Source: Janthinobacterium sp. 67 (lineage in GTDB: Bacteria; Pseudomonadota; Gammaproteobacteria; Burkholderiales; Burkholderiaceae_D). From it: a DNA stretch of 64,000 bases. Where the stretch lies: the NCBI RefSeq assembly GCF_002797895.1, contig NZ_PGES01000001.1:186001-250000 (forward strand). The letters are read 5' to 3'. Positions 8,964 to 28,459 of the stretch are shown here, in pieces. Positions within the stretch are counted from its first letter, which is position 1; every line of letters starts with the position of its first letter. The translations under genes and the position numbers were made by a program. The notes beneath the pieces are model-generated. The model ran no database searches. It was not told the DNA's origin and saw only the letters and a list, made by a program, of their open reading frames with translations.

Positions 8964-8989
8964 GGCGAATCGCGCGGCGGCCTTGCTTG

Positions 8990-11900: not shown

Positions 11901-13012
11901 TCGTCCGGCAGGGCGTCGAGCCGGAGCGGCTGGCGGTCCTGCGCGCACTGACCCAGCAGGCCACTGCCCAACGCCAGTTGCGGCGCCGGCGGATGGTCCG
12001 GATCGGCGGCGTAGCTGGCGGCAAGGCGCAATGCGGCGGCGTTTTCGTCAAGCAAGTAGAGCGCGCCCTGGCCAGCCTGCACCAGCGGCGCGAGTAGCGT
12101 CAACAGGCGCTGCGCGGCCTGGTCAAGGCTGGCCGCTTGCTGCAGTTCGGCCTGGATCGAGGCTTCCTGCGACTTGATCCAGCGCTGCATGTCGAGCTGG
12201 CGCGATTCGACCTGCAACTTGGCGATGGCGCGGGCCAGGTCGCCCGTTTCGTTCTGGTAGTCAGTATGCGGAATCACGCTGTCGAGCTGGCCGGCGGCCA
12301 GCGCATCGACCGCCTCGCGCAGGCGGTTGACCGGGCGCCGGATCGAGATGCTGATCCACCAGGCGCATAGCAGCGCCACCGCCAGGCCACCGATCAGCAG
12401 GGCGTAGGTGAGGGTGCTGCTGGTGAGGGCGAATTGGCGAATCTGGTAGATGGTGCTGCGGGCGTTGGAATCCTTGACGGCGGCGATCTCGGCCATCTGC
12501 CGGTCGGCGGTGCGCATCGCGTGCTGGAAGCGCTCGCTGTTGAGCAGGGCGTTGGCTTCGGCGTTGCGGTGCAGCCGCGCCAGTTCGATTGCCTCGTCGG
12601 CGATGCGCTCGGCGCGCGCCAGCATGCTTTCAAAGACGTTATGGCGTTGCTGGTTGTCGATGCGCAGCAGGGTGGCGCGGGCCTCGTCGACGGCAAAGTG
12701 TAGCTGCTCGCGCGTCTTGTCTAGCTGTTCGAGCGCCTTGTCGACGGCAACAGGGTCCGGGGAGTTGGCCACCTTGTGCAGCATTAGCTCGAAGCGGTTG
12801 AGCTGGATGCGGGCCTCCTTGACCTGTACGATGCCGATCATGCCCTCGCTGAGCAGGCGCTGCATGTCGCTACTCAACTGGTCTTGGGTGCGTAGGCTTT
12901 GCAACCCCAGCGCCAGGGCCAGCAGCAGCACTGCGCAAAAGCCGGCCGCAAGCTTCTGGCGCAGGCGCAGCCGTTCAAGATAAGCCAGGGGCGAACGCAT
13001 GCCGGCGCTCAC
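8990..13012 (-). CDS. Membrane hybrid sensor kinase (HAMP-GAF-PAS-HK-REC-REC-Hpt)
   Basis: This 1340-aa complete phosphorelay protein in the inner membrane is read from GTG at 13012. Order: membrane segment at about 22-40, periplasmic helical sensor, second membrane segment at about 200-220, HAMP, GAF-like domain (about 290-430), PAS (about 455-575), kinase with His606 in NMSHEIRTPMNAI, ATPase domain (GGTGLGLAISKKLVELM), two receivers (LVLLDWRMPGMDG; GVLMDCQMPVMDG) and a C-terminal Hpt (RVAHTLRGTAGNVGA). It resembles BarA/Bvg-type kinases. Its start overlaps the stop of the HD-GYP gene by 4 nt, so they form an operon. The sensed signal cannot be read from the sequence. Confidence 0.93.
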   Translation of the reverse strand: MSAGMRSPLAYLERLRLRQKLAAGFCAVLLLALALGLQSLRTQDQLSSDMQRLLSEGMIGIVQVKEARIQLNRFELMLHKVANSPDPVAVDKALEQLDKTREQLHFAVDEARATLLRIDNQQRHNVFESMLARAERIADEAIELARLHRNAEANALLNSERFQHAMRTADRQMAEIAAVKDSNARSTIYQIRQFALTSSTLTYALLIGGLAVALLCAWWISISIRRPVNRLREAVDALAAGQLDSVIPHTDYQNETGDLARAIAKLQVESRQLDMQRWIKSQEASIQAELQQAASLDQAAQRLLTLLAPLVQAGQGALYLLDENAAALRLAASYAADPDHPPAPQLALGSGLLGQCAQDRQPLRLDALPDDYVQIHSQLGRSRPRHLQVLPLLHGERLMGVLELAGFDAPSESGRVLMDELLPKLAMSLEIKARSHAVQAMAIELEAQQVVLKATEAWYRGIIEAAPDGMLVIDVHGLIMMTNPQLDQLFGYEAGELAGLPIETLVPPEAHGRHVGSRNGFIEQGTARQMGMTGADLHGMRKDGSRFSVEIGLSRLPAIAERGVCVCASVRDISDRKLAEAEVLRAKEIAEDATRAKSDFLANMSHEIRTPMNAIIGMSHLALRTDLDKKQRNYIEKVHRSAENLLGIINDILDFSKIEAGKMNIEQAPFRLEDVLENFASMIGLKAEEKGLELLFATSADLPTALVGDSLRLGQVLVNLGNNAAKFTERGEIVVGIEMAADAGDQVELHFWVRDSGIGMTAEQCERMFHSFSQADSSTTRKYGGTGLGLAISKKLVELMDGRIWVESMPGEGSTFHFSARFGRQTEVQPRRMFHADELLGLRVLVVDDNASAREILSTMARSFGLEVDLADSGHSALRTMVEAERKSLPYDLVLLDWRMPGMDGVETLQRMQSGAVTHIPSVIMVTAFGRDDAQEAAALQQVALPAVLTKPVTPSTLLEAIGEVLGKGVVAETRQAERQDRSAADQARMAGARLLLAEDNDMNQELARELLESAGIVLTIVGDGQQALDLLAQAGTVAFDGVLMDCQMPVMDGYEATRRLRAQPRYAQLPIIAMTANAMAGDREMALTAGMNDHISKPLNVTAMFATMSKWIRPAQSALAAPPAGQPDSAGKVVAALPAELPGIDQRAGLATSMGRQDLYLRMLVRFRDGHARLRGEFEAARQSDDPTAAARVAHTLRGTAGNVGAKGVAATATALELACKAGVAEAELAVLLTAVENELAPVLLGLAALGNYTAAAENTRAGAIAAAPALPPDATATLAQLRKLLADSDTAALDVLETLESQAAGHPLARQLRKVSQAIERFDFDAALEALDAVVQPA

Positions 13013-14166
13013 TGTGCAGGCAGGGTGTGTGCGATGGCGGCAGCCTGCTTGGCCATGTCCTGGTCGCTGTCGGCGTAGCGCGCGGCGATCTGCTGGAAGG
13101 CGGGCAGGTTGGCCAGGAAGGCGTCGCAGACGTCGGGATCGAAGTGCGAGCCGCGCCCCTCGGCGATGATTTGCACTGCCTTTTCATGCGGCATGCCTTC
13201 CTTGTAGACGCGACGACTGATCAGGGCGTCGTAGACGTCGGCCACCGCCATCAGCCGCGCCGAAATCGGGATGGCGTCGCCGGCCAGGCCTTCGGGGTAG
13301 CCGCTGCCGTCCCATTTTTCCTGGTGTGAGTAGGCGATCTCCTTGGCCAGGCGCAGGAAGTCGACGTCCATGCCCAGTTGTTGTTCGGCGTGGGCGATGG
13401 CGTCGCGCCCGAGCGTGGTGTGGGTCTTCATGATCTCGAATTCCTCGGGTTCGAAGCGGCCAGGCTTGAGCAAGATGCGGTCGGGGATGCCGATCTTGCC
13501 GATGTCGTGCAACGGCGCCGACTTGAACAAGAGCTTGATGGTGTCGGGGTCGAGGAAAGCGCGGAAGCGCGGATGCTCGCTCAGATGTTCGGCCAGCACC
13601 TTGACGTAGTGCTGGGTGCGGCGGATGTGGTTGCCGGTCTCGTTGTCACGCGTCTCGGCCAGCGAGGCCATGGCGTGGATCGTGACATCCTGGATCGCGC
13701 CCAGCTCGCGCGTGCGGCGCTGGACTTCCTGTTCCAGGTACTCGTTCTTGTCGCGCAGGAAGTCGGCCGCGTCTTTGACCTTGAGTTGGGTGCGTACGCG
13801 CGCCAGCACCACGGGCGGGCTGATCGGTTTGGTGATGTAATCGGCCGCGCCCAGCTCCAGACCGTGCGTCTCGTCCTCGCTGGAGGCCATAGCGGTCAAG
13901 AAGATGATGGGTATGTCGCGCGTGGCCGGGTCGCCCTGCAGTGCCTGCGCCACTTCGTGGCCGGTCATCCCAGGCATCATGATGTCAAGCAGGATGAGGT
14001 CGGGCGGCGGTGCATCGCGCGCGATGCGCAGTGCTTTCTCGCCGTTATTCGCTGCTTTGACCGTATAACTATCCTTGAGCAAGTTGGCCATCAACAGAAG
14101 ATTATCCGGCGTGTCGTCCACGACAAGGATTACAGGCCTGATGGGACGGGTATAAGATGAGTTCAT
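13009..14166 (-). CDS. Response regulator with HD-GYP domain (c-di-GMP phosphodiesterase)
   Basis: This 385-aa protein has a receiver at residues 10-130 (acceptor Asp in LILLDIMMPGMTG, VVDD acidic pair, TKPI lysine), a short coiled coil (KNEYLEQEVQRRTREL) and an HD-GYP domain to the end. The HD-GYP motifs are complete: HDIGKIGIPD, SHQEKWDGSGYP and DVYDAL, so hydrolysis of cyclic di-GMP is likely. ATG at 14166 is preferred over the TTG at 14181 because GGAG lies 9 nt upstream. It is the first gene of a two-gene operon with the hybrid kinase, which probably phosphorylates it and links an environmental signal to motility or biofilm choice. Confidence 0.92.
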   Translation of the reverse strand: MNSSYTRPIRPVILVVDDTPDNLLLMANLLKDSYTVKAANNGEKALRIARDAPPPDLILLDIMMPGMTGHEVAQALQGDPATRDIPIIFLTAMASSEDETHGLELGAADYITKPISPPVVLARVRTQLKVKDAADFLRDKNEYLEQEVQRRTRELGAIQDVTIHAMASLAETRDNETGNHIRRTQHYVKVLAEHLSEHPRFRAFLDPDTIKLLFKSAPLHDIGKIGIPDRILLKPGRFEPEEFEIMKTHTTLGRDAIAHAEQQLGMDVDFLRLAKEIAYSHQEKWDGSGYPEGLAGDAIPISARLMAVADVYDALISRRVYKEGMPHEKAVQIIAEGRGSHFDPDVCDAFLANLPAFQQIAARYADSDQDMAKQAAAIAHTLPAQ

Positions 14167-14766
14167 GCCTAAATGCTCCAATCAGGTCCGCACTAATTTG
14201 TTGCCTAGACTATATCTGTGTCCTGTGTGCAAGTAAACCGCATATTAGTTTTGCTATGCGAATCGCTCCCGTCCTACACTACATTCTCCGATCTCTAGGT
14301 ATATATGGATTGCTCATCACTCAACATTTCGAAAATGACAGTGTGGGGAGGGTGCGCTTAGGGAGACCTCTGCCGCCAAGCTGAACTTCTGCTTTGAGGC
14401 CAGGCTGTGTGGAAACGCAGAAAAATTCTGGTTCTTCAAAAATCGGCCTCTCAAAACGCGCGCTACCCCGTTTTCTCGGTGGCGGGAATGGTAACCCTAC
14501 CCACAAATATTTTGAGATTTGAAGTTTTCACCCAGCCTGGGGCGGAACCAGCCGCTCCCTGCCTCTGCTGGTGGCGTTACGGAAGTTGTCAGTTCAGGGA
14601 CGACGTCGTTCGCAGCCATTTCGTTATCCCTTTGGATTAGTCGCAGCTATTCAGCGAAAAATCGTCGCAGCTTTTAGCAAAATCAAGTTGGCCTAGCCCT
14701 GTGCCGCAATACCTTTCGTCGCGTTTATTTCAGAAAGTCACAACACCGCTGGGAAGCGGCGTGATC
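14167..14766. other. Gap between HD-GYP gene and IS66, no clear gene
   Basis: About 600 nt separate the signalling operon from the IS66 tnpC stop. The promoter of the HD-GYP operon must lie at about 14170-14300. A 40-codon minus-strand frame (14497-14619, starting MAANDVVPELTTSV, with AGGG before its ATG) could be a small gene or the truncated start of one; it matches nothing I recognise. The left end of IS66 should be in this stretch, but no copy of the GTAAGCGTC terminus seen at 17177 is obvious. Confidence 0.4.
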
Positions 14767-16308
14767 TCAAAGGGCTGCTGGCAGCTTGCAGTTCCAAGGC
14801 AAGAAGTCATCAACCCGGTTGACGGGATGATCGGTGATATGCGTCAGCACGTGACGCAACCAGGCTTCGGGTGCGACACCGTTCAGCTTGGCCGTGCCGA
14901 TCAACGAGTAGATCGCGGCGGCCCGTTCGCCGCCGCTGTCGGCGCCGGCGAACAGATAGTTGCGCCGACCAATGGCGACACCACGCAAGGCGCGTTCGGC
15001 CGCCGAGTTGTCAATCTCGATGGCGCCGTCGTCGCAGTAGCGCAGCAGCGCCGGCCAGAGCTTGAGCGCGTACAGGATCGCCGCCGCCGTGTCGGACTTG
15101 CGCGACAGCGTATCGAGCGTGGAGCGCAGCCAGTGCTCCAAGTCCTCGAGCAGCGGGCGCGAGCGGGCTTGCCGAACTTGTCGTCGTTCGTCGGGCGGCT
15201 TGCCCCGGATCTTGGCCTCGATCAAATAGAGCTCGGCGATCCGGCGCAGCGCCTCGGTGGTCAGCGGCGTCGCGCGCGCCGCGTGCAGGTCGTGGAATTT
15301 ACGCCGCGCGTGCGCCCAGCAAGCCGCTTCCTGGATCGTGCCGTCTTCGAACAAAGCGTTGAAGCCAGCGTAGGCATCGGCTTGCAGCACGCCCTCGAAC
15401 TTGGCCAAGTGGGTTTGCGGATGGATGCCCTTGCGGTCGGGCGTGTAGCCAAACCAAACCGCCGCTGGCGTGGTGTCGCCGGCGGGCCGGTCATCGCGCA
15501 CGTAAGTCCACAGACGGGCCGTCTTGGTTTTGCCATTGCCGGGCGCCAGCACCGGGATCGGCGTGTCGTCGGCATGCAGCTTCGACGCCGTCAGCACGTG
15601 GCGGCGAATGGCATCGACCAACGGACGCAGCAATGCGCTAGCGGCGCCGACCCAGTCCGCCAGCAGCGCACGATCGAGGTCGACGCCTTCGCGGGCGTAA
15701 ATGACGGCCTGGCGGTACAGCGGCAGATGATCGGCGAACTTCGCAACCAGCACATGCGCCAGCAGGCCGGGGCCGGCGATGCCGCGCTCAATCGGCCGGC
15801 TTGGCGCCGGCGCCTGGACGATGGCGTCGCAGCAGGAGCACGCCAGTTTCGGACGAACATGGCGGATCACGCGGAAGCTGGCCGGCACGAACTCCAGTTG
15901 CTCGGCCACGTCCTCGCCCAGCGGCCGCAGGCCGCCGCCACAAGCCGGGCAAGCATCGGCCGGCGGCGCATACACCTTTTCGTCTCGCGGCAAATGATCG
16001 GGCAACGGCCGGCGCACAGACTTCTTTCGCGGCGCCTGGTCGGCCGCCGGCATCTCGCGCGCCGCCTCGGCCTCGTCGGCTTGCAGGTCTTCCAGTTGCA
16101 GCTCCAGCTGCTCGATTTGATGATCCAGCTTTTCCGATTTGCGGCCGAATTGCATGCGCCGCAATTTGGCGATCTGCAGCTTGAGGTGCTCGATCTCGAC
16201 GGCGCGCGTGTTCAGCTGTTCGCGCAGCCCTTCAACCACCTCGTTTTGAGCGAGCAGCAGCACCTTCAAGGCGGCGATGTCGTTGGGCAGGTCGGCTGGG
16301 CTGAGCAT
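14767..16308 (-). CDS. tnpC: IS66 family transposase TnpC (DDE)
   Basis: This 513-aa main transposase of the IS66 element has an N-terminal leucine-zipper-like coiled coil ([20 protein letters not shown]), a zinc-finger region ([10 protein letters not shown]...CSCCDA), then the DDE core: Asp in [12 protein letters not shown], Asp in [10 protein letters not shown] and Glu in [12 protein letters not shown], followed by [14 protein letters not shown] and a C-terminal IS66 tail. The length is normal and no frameshift is seen, so the enzyme is probably functional. Confidence 0.95.
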
Positions 16309-16337
16309 GTGCCAAGTTTACGCGAGCCTTGTGTCGT

Positions 16338-16681
16338 TTACAAGGCCGACGTTGGTCTCCAGGTCCGTTCCGGCCGCCGCCAGTCGATGCCTTCAAGCAG
16401 CATCGACAGTTGCGCCTGCGTCAACGCCACCGAACCGTTGGTAGCCTGCGGCCAGATGAAGCGACCACGCTCAAGCCGCTTGGCCAGCAGGCACAGGCCA
16501 TCGCCGCTCCACCACAGGAGTTTGATGAGGTCGCCGCGCCGGCCCCGGAACACGAATACGTGGCCGCTGAACGGATCTTCCTCCAGCGCCGTCTGCACTT
16601 TGGCAGCCAGGCCGTTGAAGCCGGAGCGCATGTCGGTGGTGCCGGCGGCAAGCCATACCTTGGTGCCGGCGGGCAGGCCGA

Positions 16682-16685
<4 letters not shown>
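16338..16685 (-). CDS. tnpB: IS66 accessory protein TnpB (IS66 Orf2-like)
   Basis: This 115-aa protein contains [19 protein letters not shown] and [23 protein letters not shown], the hallmark motifs of the IS66 Orf2 family required for transposition. It overlaps the end of tnpA by 4 nt (ATGA), so translation is coupled, and tnpC follows after 29 nt. Complete. Confidence 0.96.
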
Positions 16686-17086
<401 letters not shown>

Positions 17087-17209
17087 AATCAGAATTTGTG
17101 GGCACAAATGCTGTGCCAAAATTCGATCATGAATGACGGTGGTCAGGGAGTCCAGACGGCGCTGGGAAGACGCTTACTATTTAATCGCCCTCATGTCGTG
17201 CGGAACATG

Positions 17210-17297
17210 CACGGTTAAACCACAAATCTGCCACGGTTGAATCACAAATCTGACACGGTTGAACCACAAATCTGACACGGTTGAAGCAGATATGGCA
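17210..17297. repeat. 22-bp tandem repeat (three copies plus degenerate fourth)
   Basis: Units start at 17210, 17232, 17254 and 17276, each beginning CACGGTT. The first three continue AAACCACAAATCTG or GAA(T/C)CACAAATCTG with only two or three differences; the fourth diverges after its first 10 bases. There are no spacers, so this is not CRISPR. Iteron-like origin repeats or the internal repeats of an IS21-type end are possible; neither is proven. Confidence 0.85.
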
Positions 17298-17300
17298 CAA

Positions 17301-17330
17301 ATAAGGCCTTATAAGGCCTTATAAGGCCTT
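17301..17330. repeat. Three exact copies of ATAAGGCCTT
   Basis: The 10-bp unit ATAAGGCCTT is repeated three times without change and contains the palindrome AAGGCCTT. It directly follows the 22-bp tandem repeat. Function unknown. Confidence 0.9.
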
Positions 17331-17423
17331 ATTTTCTTTCAGCCGTGCCAAAAAAGGGGTTTGGTCGACGTTGCGTCCGACGATTTTAGTGGTTCAGTCG
17401 CTGCGCGAAGCGGGGCAGGATAG

Positions 17424-17463
17424 GTGAAGTTAGCTAACCGGCGGGCCGGTTAGCTAACTTCAC
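17424..17463. repeat. 19-bp perfect inverted repeat
   Basis: Arms GTGAAGTTAGCTAACCGGC (17424-17442) and its exact reverse complement (17445-17463) are separated by GG. The inner part GTTAGCTAAC is itself a palindrome. There is no T-run, so it is unlikely to be a terminator. It may be a remnant of abutting element ends or a protein binding site. Confidence 0.85.
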
Positions 17464-17605
17464 ACCTGCTTATTCGCACTTCGTGCTCAACGTGTGAAGG
17501 ATGCCTGAAGGGAGGCAATCCCGACAGCGGTTCGGTGCTGGGGTCGAGCCTGTAAGAATTTCTGTGTGAAACGGGGCCATGAAATAATACCGATAGGGAT
17601 GTTCC

Positions 17606-17905
17606 ATGACCGACACGATGACTACCAAGAAACCCCGCAAGAAGAAAGAGCCGTATCCATTCCCAGGTGAGCTGATCGACCAGCTGCTGGCCCAAGTTCA
17701 GGACAAGAACGCTGAGTCTATTCCCGGTGACTCTGGCTTGGCCGGCCAGCTCAAGAAGATGCTGGCCGAGCGAATGCTGGCGGCCGAATTGACACATCAC
17801 TTGGCCAACGAGGATGCGACGAGCAAGAGTCATAGAAACGGCACCATGCCCAAGAAGGTTCTGACGCCGGACGGAGAGCTGCAACTCGACATTCCACGTG
17901 ACCGC
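17606..17905 (+). pseudogene. IS256-family transposase, N-terminal remnant
   Basis: About 100 codons match the start of mutator-type (IS256) transposases: PYPFPGELIDQLLAQVQDKN, GLAGQLKKMLAERMLAAELTHHL and VLTPDGELQLDIPRDR. The similarity stops at the IPRDR motif near 17905, where IS3 sequence begins. The catalytic DDE core is absent, so it is non-functional. The reading frame runs on into the junction as a spurious 145-aa ORF. Confidence 0.85.
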
Positions 17906-17910
17906 CTGAG

Positions 17911-18291
17911 GGGCTCAGTATCGAGGTTGATTTCTCATTGCCGTCTGAACGGGTCATCCGGTCCGTTGACAGAATCATCGAATGGCGTGGCAAACCCCAG
18001 GTCATTCGCTGCGATAAGGGCCCGGAGTACATCAGCGCTGTGACGTTGGCCTGGGCCGCCAAACGCGGTATTCGCATCGACTTCATTCAGACTGGCCAGC
18101 CGCAACAGAATGCTTATGTCGAGCGCTATAACCGAATGGTGCGCTACGACGGGTTGGCTCATCATCTGTTTGAAACGCTCGATGAGATCCAGGATTTTGC
18201 AACCCGCTGGCTGTGGACTCACAATCACGACCGGCCCAACATGGCACTTGGCGGCATCACACCAAAACAGAGGCTTGCCTTGGCCAATTAA
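17911..18291 (+). pseudogene. IS3-family transposase OrfB, C-terminal remnant
   Basis: The frame beginning with the IEVDFSLPSERVIRSVD segment and ending at 18291 matches the C-terminal third of IS3-group OrfB integrases. It keeps the second catalytic Asp region (VIRCDKGPEYIS, Lys replacing the usual Asn) and the catalytic Glu region (NAYVERYNRMVRYDGL). The first Asp and all N-terminal parts are missing because it abuts the IS256 remnant. The element's right end probably lies near 18330, at ATGGGGGGATTAC. Confidence 0.85.
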
Positions 18292-18431
18292 CCTCTACTT
18301 TTAGCGCGCTCTAAAAATGGGGGGATTACCGTCTACTTGCGCCTATTTACAGATTTTTGTAGTGCCTGGCCCTTGTTTATCGTCGCTGGGTGCAGAGCTG
18401 TCGTCGCTAGACGCTTTATTCCTGCAGGCAA

Positions 18432-21050
18432 ATGGTATTCTATTCAGAACGACCAGCCCTGCAACTGAATCCAAATTCGGTAACGTGCTGCTATTGTCCA
18501 GACCTCTTACTTTCGCGACGCATGCAATCACCAGCAGAGAAAAACTCAGATAGCACCGGCAAGCCGCTAGATTACCTAGATGTGCTGCGGGAAGGAATGA
18601 TAGCGTTGAATGCTGCGGGACCTGACGGCTTCGAAGGGCTGGTCGCGGAAGTTTTGACACATGCCTGCGGCCGGTCATTTAGGCTCGCTGCGAGCGGTTC
18701 GCAGGGCGGGCGGGATGGTGACGACGGGACCGTGTATTTCGAGGCAAAACGATACGTCGGCGACTTGAAAAGGCCCGCTGTTTCCGACAAGCTGTTGGAA
18801 CTTGGTGTGCGGGGCGTTGAGCATATTGACCTCTTCGTGCTGGCAGTTACGTGTCCAGTGAGCGCACAGCACGCTGAATTCTACGCGAAGGCCTGTGATG
18901 ACATTGGCATCGAGCTGCTGTTGTTGGATTGGGAAGAATCTAGTTTACGCCAGCCAGCATTGGCAGTGCTCCTCTCCTTAGCCACTGAAGTCGCTCGACG
19001 TTTTTTTGCAGAAAATCTTCCTGACAAAGCAGAGAGGATAGCGGGGGCGCTTTCTGAAATGGAATCCAGGGTCGACAGCCGATTGCCGGCTGAGATGTTG
19101 TCGAGGCTAACCAGCCCGCTCGCATCTTTCAGCTATGCACGTGCGAGCAGTGAGAAATGGTTCAAGAAAATTTTCGCCAGCGTTCGGGTTGCTCGAGGAA
19201 TCCTCCATCAACCGGTTGCGCCTTTCGACAGCAACGCCGGCAACTACCGAGCGCGCCCTGCGTTGGCGAATGAGCTTGCGGTAGCGCTTACCTCGCCACC
19301 AGACGAAGGATTCTGGATGCTGCAAGGCTGCGAAGGGGCAGGGAAGACTTGGCTACTAGCTTCGACTTGGAATGAACTGGCGCACTCACCGATTCTAGTC
19401 TTCATTCTTCCCGATGAGTGTAGAGACCCTGCGCGTCTGTATGACTTGGAAGGATTCGTCGCAAATAAGCTTGCGATGCAGTCGGAGCAGACCATACATG
19501 GCGATGCTCTAAAGCGCTGGCGCCGACGACTGAAAACATGGGAGACATCGCCGCAGGCTGAACGCGCCCGGTTGGTCGTTTACCTGGACGGTATTAATCA
19601 ATCTCCGGATGTAAATTGGCGACAGTGGATTGAGTCGCTCTCGGCCTACGTTCAGTCGATTGGTGGAAGGCTCATTGTCTCAGCTCGGCCGGAGGTTGCG
19701 CAGCGCGTAGCTGATACGGTGGCCTCACCGTGTCGACAGCTAAACGTCCCGGAGTGGACTGAGCAAGAGCTGTCTGAAATTTTGAAGTCGCTTGAAATTG
19801 AGCGAAACCAAATGCCGCCACAGGTGTTTGTTGCGCTCAGAAATCCACGTCTGTTGGGCATTGCGCTCGAGGTGTTAGACAAACGCGAAATAAATGGACT
19901 AGAAGAATTGCATCCTGAGCGACTGCTGTTCGAATACATGAACAAAGCATGTCGAGACAGCGCCGTGCAGCTCGAGCCGAGAAAATTCGCGCAGACTTTG
20001 CAGGGACTTGCGGCCGAATTTATGCGCCGCGTCAACGCAAAACAAACCAATGACCTGGATGTGTATTCCACCGATTTCGTTGCGGGTCTAAGTGCAGCTG
20101 CTGACAGCCAATTTTTCCAGCCGGTCCCGTGGGAGAGTAATCACTACGCCATCCATCGGAACGGACTGTCACTCGCGCTAGGGCTTTGGATTGTTTCCGA
20201 GCTGGACAAGGAGGTACGCAATGGTCGTGACCCAGCTGAACACCTTGAACGTTTGATTGAGCCGATTGAGGCGCTCGATTTTACTGCCGATGCAATGCTC
20301 GCGGCCGTGATGGTCGCGTTTTTGGATGCCGGCAAAGACTCTAAGGTTGGTGCTGTTCTGTTCTGCAGATATTGCAATTTGCAGAACAGACCGTCGAATG
20401 AAGAAGTCGCTCTTCTTGGCTTGGCGCGTCGCCGAACTGGCCTGGTCCTCGATGCAGCTCAATTCGCGATTGAGAAAGGGCATTCCCCGGATAATGGTCT
20501 CATAGGTGCCACCCTCAGTGCGATTCGTGATGACAGCCAAGCTTGGGCCACGATGCATGAGCGCATAGCGACGTGGCTTACCTTACGTTCCGATGCTGTC
20601 GATAATATTGGGGGTATTGACCAGGCGGAGAAAAAGGTCCAAGTTCAGAATCGCCAGAAGGAATATGAGGAACGACTGCGAAACCTGTCGCAAGCGGAGA
20701 GGACGATTCTGGACGAAGTGAACGGCGTGTGCATCAGCCGTGACGTTAAACCCTACCATTCGCTGGCGTTCTTGTTAATGCGTGGCCAATCACTAGCCCC
20801 GTTCGCTCAACAGATGGTGGTCTGGTCCTTGGGGACCTCTCTGTTATCGAGTTTTTACAGCTTGCATGACGAATTCCTGCAACTGGTCCAGTACAACACT
20901 GAAGACTGGGAAAAAACTCGCGGCGCTATTTTGCGTGAGAGCTCAAGGCTGCGCGAACCAGAAGTGTCCGAGAAAGGAAAGTGGGCATTGTGGCGTCTGT
21001 TGACATCGACCGGAGCATTACTCGACAGCGCGGAGGCAAAAGCGCTCTAG
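18432..21050 (+). CDS. Avs-like STAND NTPase with N-terminal nuclease, first part (ends at amber codon)
   Basis: These 872 codons end at TAG 21048-21050. Residues about 66-125 look like a PD-(D/E)xK nuclease: GFEGLVAEVL, SGSQGGRDGDDG (Asp about 95) and VYFEAKRY (Glu104-x-Lys106). A STAND-type P-loop ATPase follows: Walker A GCEGAGKT (299-306), Walker B LVVYLDG (381-387) and IVSARP (415-420). The rest is helical, repeat-like and without signatures. Nuclease-STAND-helical sensor is the plan of Avs anti-phage proteins; family identity is inferred. Alternative starts at 18522 or 18597 are possible because no good ribosome binding site marks 18432. The frame continues unbroken after the TAG into 21093-23090. 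The promoter region is occupied by an IS3 remnant. Confidence 0.7.
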   Translation: MVFYSERPALQLNPNSVTCCYCPDLLLSRRMQSPAEKNSDSTGKPLDYLDVLREGMIALNAAGPDGFEGLVAEVLTHACGRSFRLAASGSQGGRDGDDGTVYFEAKRYVGDLKRPAVSDKLLELGVRGVEHIDLFVLAVTCPVSAQHAEFYAKACDDIGIELLLLDWEESSLRQPALAVLLSLATEVARRFFAENLPDKAERIAGALSEMESRVDSRLPAEMLSRLTSPLASFSYARASSEKWFKKIFASVRVARGILHQPVAPFDSNAGNYRARPALANELAVALTSPPDEGFWMLQGCEGAGKTWLLASTWNELAHSPILVFILPDECRDPARLYDLEGFVANKLAMQSEQTIHGDALKRWRRRLKTWETSPQAERARLVVYLDGINQSPDVNWRQWIESLSAYVQSIGGRLIVSARPEVAQRVADTVASPCRQLNVPEWTEQELSEILKSLEIERNQMPPQVFVALRNPRLLGIALEVLDKREINGLEELHPERLLFEYMNKACRDSAVQLEPRKFAQTLQGLAAEFMRRVNAKQTNDLDVYSTDFVAGLSAAADSQFFQPVPWESNHYAIHRNGLSLALGLWIVSELDKEVRNGRDPAEHLERLIEPIEALDFTADAMLAAVMVAFLDAGKDSKVGAVLFCRYCNLQNRPSNEEVALLGLARRRTGLVLDAAQFAIEKGHSPDNGLIGATLSAIRDDSQAWATMHERIATWLTLRSDAVDNIGGIDQAEKKVQVQNRQKEYEERLRNLSQAERTILDEVNGVCISRDVKPYHSLAFLLMRGQSLAPFAQQMVVWSLGTSLLSSFYSLHDEFLQLVQYNTEDWEKTRGAILRESSRLREPEVSEKGKWALWRLLTSTGALLDSAEAKAL

Positions 21051-21092
21051 GAAGAACTGACGCAATCCGACGGCCCGAGGGAGTCATGGTCG

Positions 21093-23090
21093 TTGAGAGA
21101 AAAAATGTGTGCGGTCGACCCGTGCGACCCTACGACTATTATTCCCGCAAATTTGGCGGAAACCGCGGCCAAGTTTGCAGACACCAAACCCGATGATTTA
21201 TACATGCTCATGGGACAAACGGCGGAACAGCATTTCTTCGAAAATGCTGCAACAGGCATCTGCCGATTCATGCCTGAATTGGCGTCCAAAAAATATAGGG
21301 AACTGATATCTGACGTGTTGAGGCGAGATAAACTGCCGCTGCGCCAAGGCATTCAACCACTGTTAGGTGCCAGTGCGTTGATAGAGCCTTCGCTCGTCCC
21401 GGCGCTGACCAACATCGCAATCGAGTGTAGTGGGAATGAAGCCGCGCGCGGACTCAACAAGCAGGACGCACCTTTCGTGCAGCACTACGCGACCGAGGCA
21501 GTATTGCCACATCTCGATGGCAATGAGCAATTCGCGCTCTTTCAAAAGTGCGCCAACACTGGCATCGCTCGCCGCTCGGTGGAAATGTTGAAAGCTGCTG
21601 AAGATGGCGTTATCGAAAGAGAGTGGAGGCGCATAGAGAGTGGAGGCGACACGACAAAGTTGTGCAACGCCTTGCTCTTCGTTGCTTACTCGAACACTTC
21701 GCTACCTAGCGCCTTTAGGGAGTCGTTGCCGCAGTTGGTGTGCCATTCGGATTGGCTAATTCGTGCTCACGCACTTGCAGCGGTCGCTCGAACAGAGGAC
21801 TCTGGCCTCGTTCAAATAGTCGTTGATTCGGATTGGAGTGCGTCCGCTCTGCACAGCCGCCGTGAGGCATTAGAGGAGCACGCCGGCTCACGCGTATTAG
21901 CCGCGGCATGTCGCATGCGTATGATTGAGCCAAATGCTGCGCTCCAAAGAATGGCTTTGTCTTCGTACGGTCTCATAGCTCGTTGCGGCGCCGAAGGCGT
22001 CGCTGCTGTGGCCGCTGCAGTGGCAGGCGCATTACAACGTGTTCTCAATCTGAACTACGCCCCCAACTTGGTGGCCATCGAAGAGAGGGAAGTTAGAGAC
22101 TCCGACTTGCTGCCCCCAGTGCTTTCGTCCCGTATTCCAGATGAACGTTTACGAAATTCATTTGAACCGATGACAGACGAAGAGAGTGAGAAGGCTTGGG
22201 ATGCTTGGCAGGATGCCGCATGGACCAGTTATTTTGCTTTTGACTCCAAGCTTTCTGACGCTGACGCCAGATTGGCATTGGACCATCTCAGTCAGGACTG
22301 TGTGGAGGCTATCGTCCTCGCGGACCCCGTTGCTGCTGAGACGTGGCTTGAATGGATAAGGGCTGCGGGGCCTACTCAGCAGCGTTTGATTGCTCACTTT
22401 TGGCAGCAACTGGTAATGGGTTTTACCCATGTCCGGAAAGATGCGAAGCCGTTGCTGGCATTGGCGCACCATAAGCCCCTGACGAAGGTCGTCCGTAGCT
22501 ACCACGGCATTTCAGTCTTTACCTGGTTACTCTGGCGCAGCGCAGATTTGCTCGACGTATCTCAAATCTGTTTCGATAGACTGAACCTCGCGCAGAGCGA
22601 CACTGAAATCGCATATGAGGTTTACGCGGCGGAGAGTGCCGAGCAAGGGAGAGCACTTGACGATTATATTGCTCAGCAATTAGCGATTGGAGAGCCAGTC
22701 AATCTTTGCCGCGCTCTCACGGTTGCAGGCTTCCGCGACGAATGCCCGCAGTCCCTTAGGTTGTTGGGGCAGTACGCAGGCGCGACTGGCATGGTTGGAG
22801 AGGCAAGAGAGGCCGCCTGGCAGGCTTATCAGCGAAATAGATGGACACGCCACTGGTTCGAATTAATGTTGCGTGCGCCGTTTAAAGAAGACTTCTGGAG
22901 GCATTCGCGCCTGTTCTTGAAGATAGCCGATGCTCGTTATCAGATGTGGCCATTGAGCTCTGTTGCCGCGAATTCTTTCGGACGATTCTTCGTGACGCTG
23001 CATGCGGAATTGAATGACCGTCTCGAGAAATGGAGTCGCTTGCGTCGAGACAAACTGTATGGACAAAAACGTCCTTGGTGGCTGCACTAG
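21093..23090 (+). CDS. Second part of the STAND NTPase (C-terminal sensor), separated by in-frame TAG
   Basis: These 665 codons from ATG 21093 are in the same reading frame as the preceding gene. The 14 codons between the TAG and this ATG are also open and read EELTQSDGPRESWSL, so both parts were once one protein of about 1552 residues. This half is helical and repeat-like (AADARLALDHL, WLIRAHALAAVART), ends WSRLRRDKLYGQKRPWWLH and has no enzymatic motif, as expected for the target-sensing part of a STAND protein. No good ribosome binding site precedes 21093, so separate translation is doubtful. It is either a disabled gene, an assembly error or a readthrough product. Confidence 0.6.
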   Translation: MREKMCAVDPCDPTTIIPANLAETAAKFADTKPDDLYMLMGQTAEQHFFENAATGICRFMPELASKKYRELISDVLRRDKLPLRQGIQPLLGASALIEPSLVPALTNIAIECSGNEAARGLNKQDAPFVQHYATEAVLPHLDGNEQFALFQKCANTGIARRSVEMLKAAEDGVIEREWRRIESGGDTTKLCNALLFVAYSNTSLPSAFRESLPQLVCHSDWLIRAHALAAVARTEDSGLVQIVVDSDWSASALHSRREALEEHAGSRVLAAACRMRMIEPNAALQRMALSSYGLIARCGAEGVAAVAAAVAGALQRVLNLNYAPNLVAIEEREVRDSDLLPPVLSSRIPDERLRNSFEPMTDEESEKAWDAWQDAAWTSYFAFDSKLSDADARLALDHLSQDCVEAIVLADPVAAETWLEWIRAAGPTQQRLIAHFWQQLVMGFTHVRKDAKPLLALAHHKPLTKVVRSYHGISVFTWLLWRSADLLDVSQICFDRLNLAQSDTEIAYEVYAAESAEQGRALDDYIAQQLAIGEPVNLCRALTVAGFRDECPQSLRLLGQYAGATGMVGEAREAAWQAYQRNRWTRHWFELMLRAPFKEDFWRHSRLFLKIADARYQMWPLSSVAANSFGRFFVTLHAELNDRLEKWSRLRRDKLYGQKRPWWLH

Positions 23091-23520
23091 CTTTGTTCTT
23101 GAACAAAAATGGCCTGCCTTACCCGCGATGGCGCACTAGACTGCACAGTCGCCCAAGATGGCGCTGAATGCATTGCATCGATACCCAGTTAGCCGGCATT
23201 ACTTCGTTATTTGTAGTCGAACTGGCTGACGCTGGCTTATATTTTCCTAAGTTTGGTAGACTCCAATTTAGGACGCCAGGCAGTATATCGTCGACTAAAT
23301 CGAAATGTGCTACATCCCGTTTGCCGTCACGGTTCTGATGACTGGCTCTCGCTAGCAGAGCGTTAACGAAGCAATTTTGAACGGTTCGCGGTTGTCTGGC
23401 AGACTCCTGGCGATTCACTTTGCCATTGACTAACAACCTTTCCACCCCAGTCGTTCTAGGGGGGTAGGCAGGGGGGTAGCGCCGAAGTATGCGCCGTTTT
23501 TCATAGGGATGTTCTACGGA
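23091..23520. other. Right island end, no clear gene
   Basis: A short-loop hairpin TTTGTTC-TT-GAACAAA (23092-23107) follows the STAND stop directly. A 140-codon minus-strand frame (23119-23541) crosses the attachment site and has no family signature; it is taken as chance. The G-rich repeat GGGGTAGGCAGGGGGGTAGC (23461-23480) mirrors the one at 5281-5299. Confidence 0.45.
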
Positions 23521-23535
23521 CACCGTCTCCGCCAG
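23521..23535 (+). other. attR core: duplicated tRNA-Ser 3' end
   Basis: CACCGTCTCCGCCAG is identical to 5151-5165 at the end of tRNA-Ser and in the same orientation. It marks the right junction of the island. Confidence 0.85.
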
Positions 23536-23543
23536 AATCAAAT

Positions 23544-23573
23544 AAAAAAGCCTCCCTGCGGGAGGCTTTTTTA
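23544..23573 (+). terminator. Rho-independent terminator right of attR
   Basis: The stem AAGCCTCC-CTGC-GGGAGGCTT is flanked by A-rich and T-rich runs. Just after attR, it is probably the ancestral terminator of tRNA-Ser displaced by the island. Confidence 0.88.
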
Positions 23574-23773
23574 TTTGTCTGGACGGAACGGTGGGATGCG
23601 AAGACGGAGCGCCCTAAGGGGCGCGAGGCTATCCGAATCGCCATTCTGCCGCGCTCCGCGTGGCCCCGCTGGCCACGCAGCGGCCAGCGCCGTCCCCTCA
23701 TCTCATGCAGTAGCGGCCAGCACATACGCCGGTCCCTGGTCGGGCGCGTGTCGTTCATTTATATGGACGCAAT

Positions 23774-24379
23774 ATGAATACCTATTATCGCGCTGCGATC
23801 GCCGCCTTGTGCGCCAGCCTGTCGCCCGCCATGGCGGCATCCACCCCGGCCGCCTCACCGTTCCTCGACGTGCTCGTCCATCAGTACGCCAGTTGCGTCA
23901 AGCCTGCCTATCATCAGGCCGACCTGCTGCTGCAGGACGGGACGGGGCGCTACCGGATCGACGTCAAGGGCGAGGCCTACACGGTCGAACTGCAGGAGCG
24001 CATGGGCTTTTCGCTGCAGGCGGGCATAGGCGGTCCCGTGGCGGCCGTCGTCAAGCTGGACCGGCCGCCCATGGGGCAGTTCGGGGAGCAGGCCCGCTGG
24101 CGCGAACGCTGGCTGCGCGACGTGGCCGAGCGCAGCGGCGTGGCGCTCGATGAGCGTGTGCTTGCGGACGGCGCGCGCGTGCTGACCGTGAACAAGGGCG
24201 AGATCAAGGGTAACTATGTGGGGCAGTCCCTGCTGATCGATCCTGCACGGCAGTTGTTCATTGATATGGCGTGGCCGAACACGCTGGACATCTATCGTGG
24301 CCCCGACGGCCTGCGGCATGTGCGGCAGGTGCAGGACGACGTCTGGCGGCGCCTGCTGTCTTGCCCGCCGGCTGCCTGA
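23774..24379 (+). CDS. Secreted protein of unknown function
   Basis: This 201-aa protein starts with a signal peptide (MNTYYRAAIAALCASLSPAMA, cleavage after AMA). The mature part has no domain I recognise; it contains a single Cys near its start (YASCVKPAYHQAD) and one near its end, which could form a disulfide in the periplasm. It is the first gene after the island and is read in the same direction as the DUF2325 gene. An upstream gap of about 200 nt must hold its promoter. Confidence 0.75.
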   Translation: MNTYYRAAIAALCASLSPAMAASTPAASPFLDVLVHQYASCVKPAYHQADLLLQDGTGRYRIDVKGEAYTVELQERMGFSLQAGIGGPVAAVVKLDRPPMGQFGEQARWRERWLRDVAERSGVALDERVLADGARVLTVNKGEIKGNYVGQSLLIDPARQLFIDMAWPNTLDIYRGPDGLRHVRQVQDDVWRRLLSCPPAA

Positions 24380-24425
24380 TGCTGGCGGCCACCGCATACC
24401 CCTACAGCGCACGCGCGCATACACA

Positions 24426-24445
24426 AATAACAATGATTCTCATTT
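24426..24445. promoter_or_regulatory. Candidate Fur box
   Basis: The core AATGATTCTCATT (24432-24444) is the exact reverse complement of AATGAGAATCATT, a common Fur-site core, embedded in an AT-rich stretch. It lies about 60 nt upstream of the DUF2325 start at 24503. This suggests repression by Fe-Fur. Confidence 0.6.
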
Positions 24446-24502
24446 ATAATGCGGATCCATGGGGTAGCATGGGCTGGCGCCATGGCGGTGAAGGAGGGCA
24501 TG

Positions 24503-25180
24503 ATGGGCAGTGTGTATGGCAACGAGGACGCGATCGCGCACGAGCATCGCGTGCTGATCGGGGAATATGGCCGCGCGCAGGCGCGCTGCAGTGCGCAACT
24601 GGCTGCGCAGGCGGCCCGCATCGCGCAGCTGGAGTCGGAACTGATGCGCGCGCGGGCGCAGGTCGTGATCCGCGATACCAGGCTGGCGCTGGCGCGCGAC
24701 GAACTGGCCGAGCTGGCGGCCAGCGTGCCCGGCTTGCCGACGCGCGCCCGGCTGGCGCGCAAGGTCGAGTGGCTCGGCGAGCGCGTGCAGGACCTGATGC
24801 GCGAATTGCTGCGCCTGCAGTGGCTGCCCGCGCCCGCCTTGCAGGCCGATGTGCGCGAAAAAGCCGTGCTGTATGTGGGCAGCTGTCTGGAGCAGAATGC
24901 GGGCCAGCAGGCCGCCGGCGCCAACGTGGCGCAGCTGGCCATCGAACAGGCCGGCGGGCGCTTCCTGCACCACGCGGGCGGCGACGATGGCGCCGACGAC
25001 GCGGCGGCGCTGGAAGCGGGCCTGGTGGCGGCCGACCTGGTGATTTGCCAGACGGGCTGCGTCAGCCACGACGCCTACTGGCGCGTGCACGACCACTGCA
25101 AGCGCACGGGCAAGCGGTGCGTGCTGGTGGACCAGCCGCAAGCCATGCATTTCGTGCGCAAGGAGGCGCTGCTCACCTGA
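24503..25180 (+). CDS. DUF2325 domain-containing protein
   Basis: This 225-aa protein has an N-terminal coiled coil (about residues 20-110, QLESELMRARAQVVIRDTRL and neighbours) and a C-terminal DUF2325 domain beginning AVLYVGS and containing GGRFLHHAGG, ADLVICQTGCVSHDAY and KRCVLVDQ. The biochemical role of DUF2325 is unknown. The start at 24503 is chosen because GGAGG (24493-24497) sits 5 nt upstream; longer in-frame starts exist. A Fur-like box upstream suggests an iron-linked role. Confidence 0.85.
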   Translation: MGSVYGNEDAIAHEHRVLIGEYGRAQARCSAQLAAQAARIAQLESELMRARAQVVIRDTRLALARDELAELAASVPGLPTRARLARKVEWLGERVQDLMRELLRLQWLPAPALQADVREKAVLYVGSCLEQNAGQQAAGANVAQLAIEQAGGRFLHHAGGDDGADDAAALEAGLVAADLVICQTGCVSHDAYWRVHDHCKRTGKRCVLVDQPQAMHFVRKEALLT

Positions 25181-25187
25181 ACTCTTT

Positions 25188-26948
25188 TTATCGCTGGCGC
25201 TGCAGCGGCCAGAGGCGCCGCACGGTCTGCCGTTGCAGCTCTTCGCCATCCAGGTTCAGCGCGGGCTTGACCAGGTCGCTGCGGCTGACGACGCCGATCA
25301 GGCGCAAGGTTTTGGCGTCGCTGACGACGGGCAGGCGTTCGAGTTCGTGCACGGCCAGGCGGGTCGCCAGGGCGCGGCACGTTTCATCGGCCAGGGCGAC
25401 GACCGGCATGTTCACGCCGAACAGCTCGCCGGCCGTCAGGTCGCCGTTGCCGGGCAGGTGCCGCAGCAGGGTGGAACGGTCCAGCATGCCAACGAGCGCG
25501 CCGTCGCGCGTGACCGGAAAGGCGCGATGGCGCTGGGTTTCGCCGAAATGGCTGGCCAGCACGTCGGCAAGGCGCGCGCCGGCGTCGATGCCGAGCGGCG
25601 CTGGCGTCATCACTTCGGCCACGCTATGGCGTTCCATGGGATCGATGCCGTACTCGCGGTAGATATGGTAGCCGCGGCGGGCGATTTTTTCCGTCAGGAT
25701 GGAGCGGTGCATGGTGGTCACGGTGAAGGCATAGGCGACTGCCGACGCGGCCATCACAGGCAGCAGCGCATTGACGTCGTGCGTGAGTTCAAACGCGAAG
25801 GCCACGGCCATGATGGGCGCGCGCATCATGCCGCCCAGGGTGGCTGCCATGAAGACGAGCGGCCAGATGGCAGGCTCGCTGCCGGGCAGGTAGGGGCCCA
25901 GCAGGGCACCCAGGCCGGCGCCCAGCATCAGCAGCGGCGCCAGCACGCCGCCCGAGGTGCCCGAACCGAGCGCCAGCAGCCAGATCACGGCCTTGACGGC
26001 CAGCAGCGCGAGCAGTGCACCGGCCGCGATATGGTTGTGCAGCAGGTCGGCGATCACGTCGTAGCCCACGCCCAGCGCGCGCGGCTGGAAATAGCCGCCG
26101 ATGCCCACCGCCAGGCCGCCGATGGCCGGCCACCACATCCAGTGGCACGGCAACCGGTGAAACAGGTCTTCCACGCGGTACAGCGACGTCGACAACAGCC
26201 AGGCCAGCGCGCCGCACAGCAAGCCGGCGATCAGGCAGGACAGCAATGCCGATGGCGGCAGCGCCGCGCTCTGCAGCGGGAACAGCGGGCCGCTGTCGAT
26301 CAGCGCCGGGCGCAGGAAGCCGGCGATGACGCAGGCAATCGCCACCGGCGCCAGGCTGCGCGGCCGCAATTCAAACAGCAGCAGTTCCACGGCCAGCAGC
26401 AGCGCCGCCACGGGCGTGCCGAACACCGCCGTCATGCCCGCCACGGCGCCTGCCACGAGCAGCGTCTTGCGCTCGGCCGCGCTCAGGTGAAAGTGCTGCG
26501 CCAGCAGCGAGCCGACGGCGCCGCCCGTCATGATGATCGGCCCTTCGGCGCCGAACGGTCCGCCGCTGCCGATGGCGATGGCCGACGCCAGCGGCTTGAG
26601 CACGGCCACCTTGGGCGACATCAGGCTTTTCTTGAACAGGATCGCCTCGATGGCTTCGGGAATGCCGTGCCCGCGTATCTGCTCCGTGCCATAGCGGGCG
26701 ATCAGTCCGATGACGAGGCCACCGAGCACGGGCACGACGATGACCCAGATGCCCAGCGCGTGGCCGGCCGGCGACGTGAAGCCGGTCGAGAATTTTTGGA
26801 AGAAAAACAGGTTGCTGAAGAAGTGGATCGCGCGCAGCAGCACCCAGGCCGTCACGGTGCTCAGTGCGCCGACCACGACGGCGAGACCGGAGATGAGGAT
26901 CAGCCGCGCCTGGCCATCGAAGTCGCGCCGCGTATCGTATTTATGCAT
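25188..26948 (-). CDS. ClC-family chloride channel/transporter with CBS domains
   Basis: This 586-aa inner-membrane protein has the ClC selectivity-filter motifs: GSGGPFGAEGPI, a GxFxP-equivalent GTSGGVLAPLLMLGAGLG and helices to about residue 430. Two C-terminal CBS domains follow (EVMTPAPLGIDAGARLADVL; and AVHELERLPVVSDAKTLRLIGVVSRSDLV). The true start is ATG at 26948, overlapping the marR stop by 8 nt; codons further up belong to marR. It probably moves Cl- or exchanges Cl-/H+. The overlap implies co-expression with the MarR regulator. Confidence 0.92.
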   Translation of the reverse strand: MHKYDTRRDFDGQARLILISGLAVVVGALSTVTAWVLLRAIHFFSNLFFFQKFSTGFTSPAGHALGIWVIVVPVLGGLVIGLIARYGTEQIRGHGIPEAIEAILFKKSLMSPKVAVLKPLASAIAIGSGGPFGAEGPIIMTGGAVGSLLAQHFHLSAAERKTLLVAGAVAGMTAVFGTPVAALLLAVELLLFELRPRSLAPVAIACVIAGFLRPALIDSGPLFPLQSAALPPSALLSCLIAGLLCGALAWLLSTSLYRVEDLFHRLPCHWMWWPAIGGLAVGIGGYFQPRALGVGYDVIADLLHNHIAAGALLALLAVKAVIWLLALGSGTSGGVLAPLLMLGAGLGALLGPYLPGSEPAIWPLVFMAATLGGMMRAPIMAVAFAFELTHDVNALLPVMAASAVAYAFTVTTMHRSILTEKIARRGYHIYREYGIDPMERHSVAEVMTPAPLGIDAGARLADVLASHFGETQRHRAFPVTRDGALVGMLDRSTLLRHLPGNGDLTAGELFGVNMPVVALADETCRALATRLAVHELERLPVVSDAKTLRLIGVVSRSDLVKPALNLDGEELQRQTVRRLWPLQRQR

Positions 26949-27369
26949 GGCCGTCACCCGCCAGTTTCGGGATGGTGAACACGCCTTCGAGGGACAGCAA
27001 TTCCGTGCGGTGCAATTGCGCCAGCTTGGCCAGCATGGCTTCGCCGTCGGCCAGCAGGTGGATTTCGACACGGCGCCGGTCGGCGCTGCTGTGGCGGCGC
27101 TCTACCAGACCCGATGCCTCGCAGCGCGTGACCAGCGCCACGACGCCGTGCGGTTTGGCCTGCAGCCGTTCGGCCAGTTCGCCCACCGTGGCCCAGTCGC
27201 GGCCCGGGTACCCCTTGATATGCAACAGCAGCAGGTATTGCAGCGGCGTGATGCCGTGCGCCTGGATCACGTCATCGGAGAAGCGCTCGAAGCGCCGCAT
27301 CTGATAGCGAAATTCCGACAGGGTCGTGAAGTCATGCTTGCCGAGTGTGGCGGGAGGTGCAGGGGGCAT
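26941..27369 (-). CDS. MarR-family transcriptional regulator
   Basis: This 142-aa winged-helix regulator contains ITPLQYLLLLHIKGYPGRDW, the recognition region TVGELAERLQAKPHGVVALV and the wing with RRHSSADRRRVEIHLLADGE. It is the first gene of an operon with the ClC gene, whose start it overlaps. A dyad ATCAC-AAC-GTGAT lies 35 nt upstream of the start and is the likely autoregulatory operator. Confidence 0.92.
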   Translation of the reverse strand: MPPAPPATLGKHDFTTLSEFRYQMRRFERFSDDVIQAHGITPLQYLLLLHIKGYPGRDWATVGELAERLQAKPHGVVALVTRCEASGLVERRHSSADRRRVEIHLLADGEAMLAKLAQLHRTELLSLEGVFTIPKLAGDGHA

Positions 27370-27403
27370 CGCGGCGGCCTAGTGAGGGAAAGGCGCCAAA
27401 TAT

Positions 27404-27416
27404 ATCACAACGTGAT
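27404..27416. promoter_or_regulatory. Dyad upstream of marR, candidate operator
   Basis: ATCAC-AAC-GTGAT, within TATATCACAACGTGATGTA, is a compact palindrome of the size MarR dimers bind. It sits in the promoter region of the marR-clc operon. Confidence 0.5.
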
Positions 27417-27454
27417 GTAAATAGCCGGAAAGCCTTTCCCTGTCGATGTTCCGC

Positions 27455-28459
27455 TCAGGCGGGCGTGGTGCTGCCGATGCCCGCGCCGTAGCCGGCCCGC
27501 ACCGTTTCGCGCAGCAGCGTAGCTTGCGACAGGTGCTGGATCATGTGGCCGGCGCCGGGCAGCAAGGTCAGTTCGCTGTTGTCCAGCTCCTCGTGCAGGC
27601 GCGCGGAATGGTCGCTGGCGCTGACGATCGCATCCTCGCGTCCGGCCACGATGGACACGGGCATGCGCAGCTCCGGGTAGTGTTTGCGCAGCGCCGCCGC
27701 GCTCGGGATCATCATGGCCGTTTCTTCCGCCTCGGCGCGCAACTGGCCGGGACGCAGCATCATCCACGGCGACAGGCGCTTGAAGCTGTCCGGCACTGGC
27801 GCGGGTGCGAACGCGCGTTTGACCGACAGGGGCCACATCAGGCGCCCCAGCAGGGGCGAGATGGTATGGCTGAGCACATCGCCGATGACGGGAATGGCCG
27901 GCGTTGCCGTCAGCACATCGAAGCGCACGCTGGGATAGTAGTAGCCGGAAGCGAGCACCAGGGCCTGCACCAGTTGCGGCTGCTGCAGGGCCATCGAGAT
28001 CGCCACCAGCGTGCCCCAGGAGTGTGCCAGCACGACGGCGTGGCGCACGCCCAGCTGCTCGAGCGCGGCCGCCAGCAGCGCGGCCTGGGCGGCCGGCGTC
28101 CACAGCGTGCCGCGCGGCCGGCCGCTGTAGCCAAAGCCGGGCCGGTCGAAGGCGATCACGCGGTGCGTGCGCGCCAGTTGGTCGAACAGGCCCGCATGGC
28201 GAAAATCCTCGGCGATGACGCCGTTTCCGTGCAACAGCACGATGACGGGGCCTTCGCCCTGGCTCAGGTAGTGCAGGCGCGTGCCGTGCACGTCGAGAAA
28301 ATGGCCGGCGGGCGGATGCGCGCGCTCGGCCTGCCGGCTGCGGCTGCGGACAAACAGCCACGCCGCCCCCAGTGCCAGCGCGCCCAGGGTCCAGCCTCTA
28401 TGTGCCTGTGCCCGTGCCGGCGTGCCTTTCGCAACAACGGCGTTCATGTCTTTTTTCAT
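27455..28459 (-). CDS. Membrane-anchored alpha/beta hydrolase
   Basis: This 334-aa protein has an N-terminal hydrophobic segment (LGALALGAAWLFV, about residues 25-37) and an alpha/beta hydrolase fold. The oxyanion HGNG motif, the nucleophile Ser in VLAHSWGT, an Asp in GREDAIV and His in GAGHMIQH complete the catalytic triad. Substrate unknown; the fold covers esterases, lipases and haloalkane-type enzymes. Convergent with marR and divergent from the thioredoxin gene. Confidence 0.86.
   Translation of the reverse strand: MKKDMNAVVAKGTPARAQAHRGWTLGALALGAAWLFVRSRSRQAERAHPPAGHFLDVHGTRLHYLSQGEGPVIVLLHGNGVIAEDFRHAGLFDQLARTHRVIAFDRPGFGYSGRPRGTLWTPAAQAALLAAALEQLGVRHAVVLAHSWGTLVAISMALQQPQLVQALVLASGYYYPSVRFDVLTATPAIPVIGDVLSHTISPLLGRLMWPLSVKRAFAPAPVPDSFKRLSPWMMLRPGQLRAEAEETAMMIPSAAALRKHYPELRMPVSIVAGREDAIVSASDHSARLHEELDNSELTLLPGAGHMIQHLSQATLLRETVRAGYGAGIGSTTPA

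Follow-up and report, generated by a model that had tools for sequence, protein, structure and literature searches.

A STAND receptor gene of Janthinobacterium sp. 67 probably disabled by a single nonsense codon

A single gene with an internal TAG codon

The window analyzed here is a stretch of 64,000 nucleotides from Janthinobacterium sp. 67, a bacterium whose genome of 6.45 Mb is assembled in two contigs. The 16S rRNA of the host has 97% identity over 1500 bases with that of Duganella sp. OV510, the one match among four named genomes searched, which points to a member of the Oxalobacteraceae. On the forward strand of the window a frame of 872 amino acids (18432-21050) and another of 665 amino acids (21093-23090) share the same phase, with a lone TAG at 21048-21050 between them. 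The sequence-only reading of these frames, as one gene interrupted by a single in-frame amber codon, is thus confirmed. The TAG is followed by a run of 679 codons that contains no stop; given the base composition here and treating bases as independent, the chance of this is about 2e-13. The GC content is 54.2% before and 54.1% after the internal TAG, and the corresponding values for GC3 are 56.9% and 57.3%. The terminator of the gene (23088-23090) is also a TAG, and three sense codons beyond it there is an in-frame TGA.

Two details of that reading require correction. It placed the next ATG 14 codons beyond the stop, but the codon at position 21093 is TTG, and the first in-frame ATG past the stop is at 21105, 18 codons on. 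It also gave a combined product of about 1552 residues. Among the matches listed there are five intact relatives (P0122-P0126) of exactly 1522 amino acids that align over the whole query from 18522, with 85-90% identity over 100% of its length and no insertions, deletions or gaps, so ATG 18522 is the most likely start, with a full product of 1522 residues. The 30 open codons 5′ of this start (18432-18521, + strand) are probably a non-coding leader or promoter: the relatives match from 18522, and in the relative from genome G743 the bases 5′ of this point are homologous but contain single-base indels.

The whole ancestral gene (i.e. 1522 codons plus stop, encoding nuclease, STAND NTPase and putative sensor, with one TAG inside) would then occupy 18522-23090 on the + strand. 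The TAG stands in place of residue 843 of 1522. It separates an N-terminal fragment of 842 amino acids (18522-21050, +), comprising the nuclease, the NTPase and the start of the C-terminal region, from a C-terminal part of 679 amino acids (21051-23090, +).

Domain organization of the encoded protein

Near the N-terminus there is an Mrr-like PD-(D/E)xK motif, GSQGGRDGDDGTVYFEAKRY (18696-18755, +), of which D65, E74 and K76 are all present in the window copy; the pattern D..[EQ]xK occurs in 66 of 78 aligned members of the family. The Walker A sequence GCEGAGKTW of the STAND NTPase (19326-19352, +) contains K275, and this lysine is invariant in 78/78 members, as are D356 and N359 of the Walker B region LVVYLDGINQSP (19572-19607, +). 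The Walker motifs lie between the N-terminal effector and the C-terminal region, the arrangement of the STAND NTPase superfamily.

Matches to profiles are weak throughout. Pfam AAA_22 matches the STAND NTPase with an E-value of 9.1e-5 and a score of 23.2 bits, under the family cut-off of 27. In 28 members searched at E up to 0.05 the matches were to AAA_22 (15 members), NACHT (10), AAA_16 (10), nSTAND3 (4) and Mrr_cat (3), all weak, the best E-values being 3.8e-7 for NACHT and 0.0054 for Mrr_cat. Searching profiles of PDB structures gave weak P-loop matches only, e.g. to APAF-1 at E 0.22-0.28; this was done twice, but as full-length rows were present in both alignments, the second search nearly duplicates the first. 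No Pfam match was found in the C-terminal part, and its position suggests that it is a helical sensor. In the domain order proposed earlier the Mrr-like motif, the P-loop STAND ATPase and the long C-terminal region all stand, while the helical sensor is a putative assignment from its place in the protein.

The nuclease pattern is missing from the alignment in 12 of the 78 members, and so the effector appears to be exchangeable. In one relative of 1520 residues (locus L006, 3960-8519) the N-terminus, judged by eye, is presumably TIR-like in place of the nuclease.

Relatives of the gene, and the residue at the position of the stop

A profile search was made using an intact relative (from locus L005) and the two window pieces as query, with 7988 candidates scored. 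It found at least 131 relatives, most of them about 1520 amino acids long and lacking a functional name. From the best 120 of these we aligned the 106 that are 1400-1600 amino acids long, leaving out 14 for their length. The column of the stop is occupied by a sense residue in 105 of the 106, mostly a small hydrophobic one, and by a gap in the other; in none is there a stop. A second search, with the stop written as X, found at least 27 relatives, and a sense residue is present in 27/27 of the matches listed. The C-terminal half of the intact relatives is homologous to the 679 codons 3′ of the TAG, and at 19 relative loci both parts lie in one uninterrupted frame of 1512-1793 codons, so they are not separate genes in these relatives. 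The sense residues at this position indicate that a single ancestral gene acquired a nonsense change, the outcome for which comparison with homologues had been suggested as the check. In the eight nearest relatives the residue has a codon that differs from TAG by one base, so a single substitution is enough to account for the stop; it had rightly been said that one base separates the full-length from the truncated protein. Two of the five intact 1522-residue relatives come from Massilia and Duganella. Another of the eight nearest, P0127, has only 1171 amino acids and its end diverges.

Among 392 genomes of the host's family, 10 (the window genome included) match the N-terminal part. Seven of the others have stop-free frames of 1512-1793 codons, some only distantly related, in G411 the match is a short, weak fragment containing a TAG, and the last, G743, has the shortened gene described below. 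The C-terminal part is matched by 4 of 399 genomes of the wider order, again including the window genome; the match in G347 is weak, covering 74 residues with three stops. A nucleotide search of plasmids at near-identity with 17000-23500 gave matches covering only the insertion sequence (IS) region and none over the gene, and a search of phages in distant mode with 20000-23500 gave nothing over the gene. The viral contigs searched contained one relative. As the gene is whole in close relatives, the window copy is most likely a recently switched-off member of a little-studied family of putative immune receptors.

Sequence constraint, and a second loss in another genus

The terminal branch of the window copy measures 0.048 in an eight-sequence tree, compared with 0.049-0.091 for the five closest intact relatives. 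Private changes in otherwise invariant columns number 18/618 before the stop and 19/491 after it, which as raw counts fall inside the spread shown by the intact copies. For the window branch, the C half gives a somewhat greater length (0.056) than the N half (0.041), and the trees of the two halves differ partly in branching order. Overall, no decay is evident in either half of the gene as it reads. Comparison with the gene of G743 gives dN/dS ratios of 0.10 (233 codons) and 0.12 (133 codons), at high values of dS (1.64 and 0.88). The low dN/dS and the lack of excess changes point to past purifying selection and imply that the stop, if real, is recent. We note that the missing further decay fits a recent mutation, and fits an error or a still-functional arrangement equally well.

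G743 belongs to another genus of the same family. Its gene (locus L032, 7238-8362) has an in-frame internal deletion that takes out the NTPase together with most of the C-terminal region. The predicted product of 374 residues is a nuclease with a C-terminal tail, in which the first 233 residues (72% identical) are fused in frame to the last ~133. The same gene thus appears to have been lost independently in G743, by a different kind of mutation.

Genomic neighborhood

Just 5′ of the gene there is a remnant of an IS3-type transposase (rve/rve_3; 17907-18334, +) that is matched in many congeners. Before this lies an IS66-type element on the - strand (14743-17177), encoding TnpC (14770-16308), TnpB (16341-16685) and an HTH_Tnp_1 protein (16685-17119). 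In the three 2-kb windows that cover the gene the GC content is 54-55%, compared with 59-69% in all others. The composition and the nearby IS remnants suggest that the gene was horizontally acquired. No empty site could be resolved in congeners, where the left and right flanks are megabases apart in G443 and G611. These flanks (window 13000-17177 and 23521-28000) possibly mark an IS-associated rearrangement junction. The left flank, IS66 element included, recurs in G443 and G465 at ~100% identity. On the 5′ side of the IS cluster (7365-14181) are two large hybrid histidine kinase/response regulator proteins and an HD-domain response regulator. Four scanned neighbors of the window copy gave weak, non-specific PADLOC matches to signaling domains only, with a best E of 3e-8 for a signaling protein.

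Neighbors of the relatives were scanned for defense genes, using 106 neighboring frames of 190-1400 amino acids from 19 loci. Among the best 25 of 172 PADLOC families matched, several have matches below 1e-15. Ten neighbors scanned singly included matches to MkoA (L007), PycC and an E1-E2 protein (L009), GajA (L036) and Old (L018), and four had no match; a neighbor in L011 is SspA/DndA-like, and could be a housekeeping desulfurase. At L009 (2742-6232, Bradyrhizobium sp. Gha) the Pycsar cyclase and the E1-E2 protein lie 5′ of the family member. Defense genes (Gabija, Pycsar and Mokosh) near some relatives would be consistent with a role in defense; because the scan had no background control this is suggestive only. 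In the earlier proposal of a disabled defense gene, the single nonsense codon in one ancestral gene is upheld, while defense is a putative function of the family.

A partner gene was sought among 202 frames of at least 90 amino acids at the 19 loci, the receptors included. None but the receptor is shared at E 1e-5, the sole near-pair being the Old-like protein of L018 and the GajA protein of L036 at ~4e-4. As no neighbor is common to the 19 loci, this is probably a single-gene system.

Could the gene be functional despite the stop?

A sequencing or assembly error at one base would leave the gene intact in the living strain. It would account for there being one substitution only, in a sequence that is otherwise gap-free against five relatives. 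Yet the assembly is in two contigs and listed as 100% complete, the site is outside any homopolymer, and there are no direct repeats around the TAG (20800-21300). We regard an error as unlikely, though it is the foremost of the alternatives.

It is less likely again that the gene is split but functional, with the N-terminal fragment and a C-terminal fragment restarted at TTG 21093 or ATG 21105 together forming a working receptor. The sequence AGGGAG, separated by a spacer of nine nucleotides from TTG 21093 (21078-21095, +), makes a restart possible, and the changes after the stop are not in excess. Against this, the gene is a single frame at the 19 relative loci. Scanning 18250-23300 for promoters gave 2 sites, with 2.8 expected, though one of these (21115-21142) is just after the stop. 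The relatives moreover encode nearly identical residues around the restart, so selection for a start is not needed to explain the site.

Readthrough of the UAG, whether programmed or dependent on a suppressor, would maintain the receptor in very small amounts, and would likewise be in keeping with the lack of excess downstream changes. The search for tRNA genes scored 150 of 173 first-look candidates and yielded 90 genes, all read with ARAGORN (which read 47 of 55 tRNA loci, the remaining eight overlapping these). None of the 90 has the anticodon CTA. A selenocysteine tRNA (TCA) is present at C1:1964219-1964309 of the host genome. The gene's own end is the same TAG codon, and the internal stop is conserved in none of the relatives (0/27 listed and 0/106 aligned), where programmed readthrough would have it conserved. 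We consider readthrough very improbable.

Finally, a phase-variable or retroelement-diversified site that toggles the gene on and off has in its favor a clean single change and an imperfect 14-nt palindrome (21142-21161) ~95 bases 3′ of the stop, but with no direct repeats, and with neither a second gene copy nor a template for 20930-21170 in the rest of the genome, we give it almost no credence. Phase variation, suppressor dependence and programmed readthrough had all been raised at the outset, and none gained support.

Probable inactivation of a possibly costly receptor

We consider it probable that the locus encodes a horizontally acquired, single-gene STAND receptor, inactivated not long ago when a nonsense mutation arose at residue 843 of 1522. 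In the intact proteins, a phage-derived or damage signal might be sensed by the C-terminal region, upon which the NTPase would oligomerize. The Mrr-like nuclease would then cut DNA, stopping the infection at the cost of the cell. The window copy could make at most the 842-residue fragment, lacking 679 residues, and most likely could not be triggered. Its loss would spare the host a cost or the risk of self-activation.

More tentatively, and with about even confidence at best, we suggest that the gene represents an uncatalogued, widespread family of solo STAND receptors of ~1520 residues that is distinct from Avs1-5. These would carry an exchangeable N-terminal effector (usually the Mrr-like nuclease, otherwise some other module), and independent mutations would have silenced them at least twice in Oxalobacteraceae on account of the cost of keeping them.

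As a loss-of-function event the amber codon is ordinary; its interest lies in pointing to a large, still unnamed family of receptors, with at least 131 relatives, that is worth naming and testing. With intact and disabled copies in related Oxalobacteraceae, it would be possible to measure what such receptors cost.

Comparison with Avs and other known systems

PADLOC, NCBIfam and Pfam place none of the 28 sampled members in a family with confidence, and no description of this nuclease-STAND family was found in the literature searched. Weak PADLOC matches to PtuA (3/28 members, best E 4.7e-4) and similar families were taken as shared P-loop signal. One member of the 28 matches the DS41_1 anti-phage protein (NF053860) weakly, with E 0.0013; the other 27 and the N-terminal part of the window gene do not. 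Like bNACHT proteins such as bNACHT25, the family has weak matches to Pfam NACHT, in 10/28 members. bNACHT25 is reported to detect coat protein through DnaJ (PMC12169576).

The STAND core is shared with Avs5 (Sir2-STAND), and nSTAND3, matched weakly in 4/28 members, is a module described in Avs5 (PMC12931631). By contrast with Avs5, the effector motif at the N-terminus is Mrr-like rather than Sir2, and there is no Pfam match to Sir2 in the N-terminal part. The Avs5 model NF041814 is silent in the host genome, as it is with its own controls.

A nuclease effector is described for Avs1-Avs4 in the same report, according to which Avs1, Avs3 and Avs4 are STAND proteins with nuclease effectors that respond to terminase, portal or another phage protein (PMC12931631). 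The gene had been assigned to Avs from its domain order and size, but no PADLOC Avs model was matched by the 28 members at E up to 1. This includes Avs1, Avs3 and Avs4, the positive control being for Avs2 only. That control, a protein of 1405 amino acids picked by NCBI's Avs2 model NF041813, matches six models with up to 1719.6 bits, whereas the nearest intact relative, P0122, matches 0 PADLOC families. There is no Avs2 match in the host genome.

The family resembles Avs2 in protein size and in the central place of the STAND NTPase. Alignment of profiles by hhalign with three Avs2 proteins, of which two score under the NCBIfam cut-off, extends over 234 columns of the NTPase only, with probability 33.6 and E 4.4e-4; unlike the NTPase, the nuclease and C-terminal parts have no detected similarity to Avs2. 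By the tests made here the family is not Avs2, but judged by its architecture it is Avs-like.
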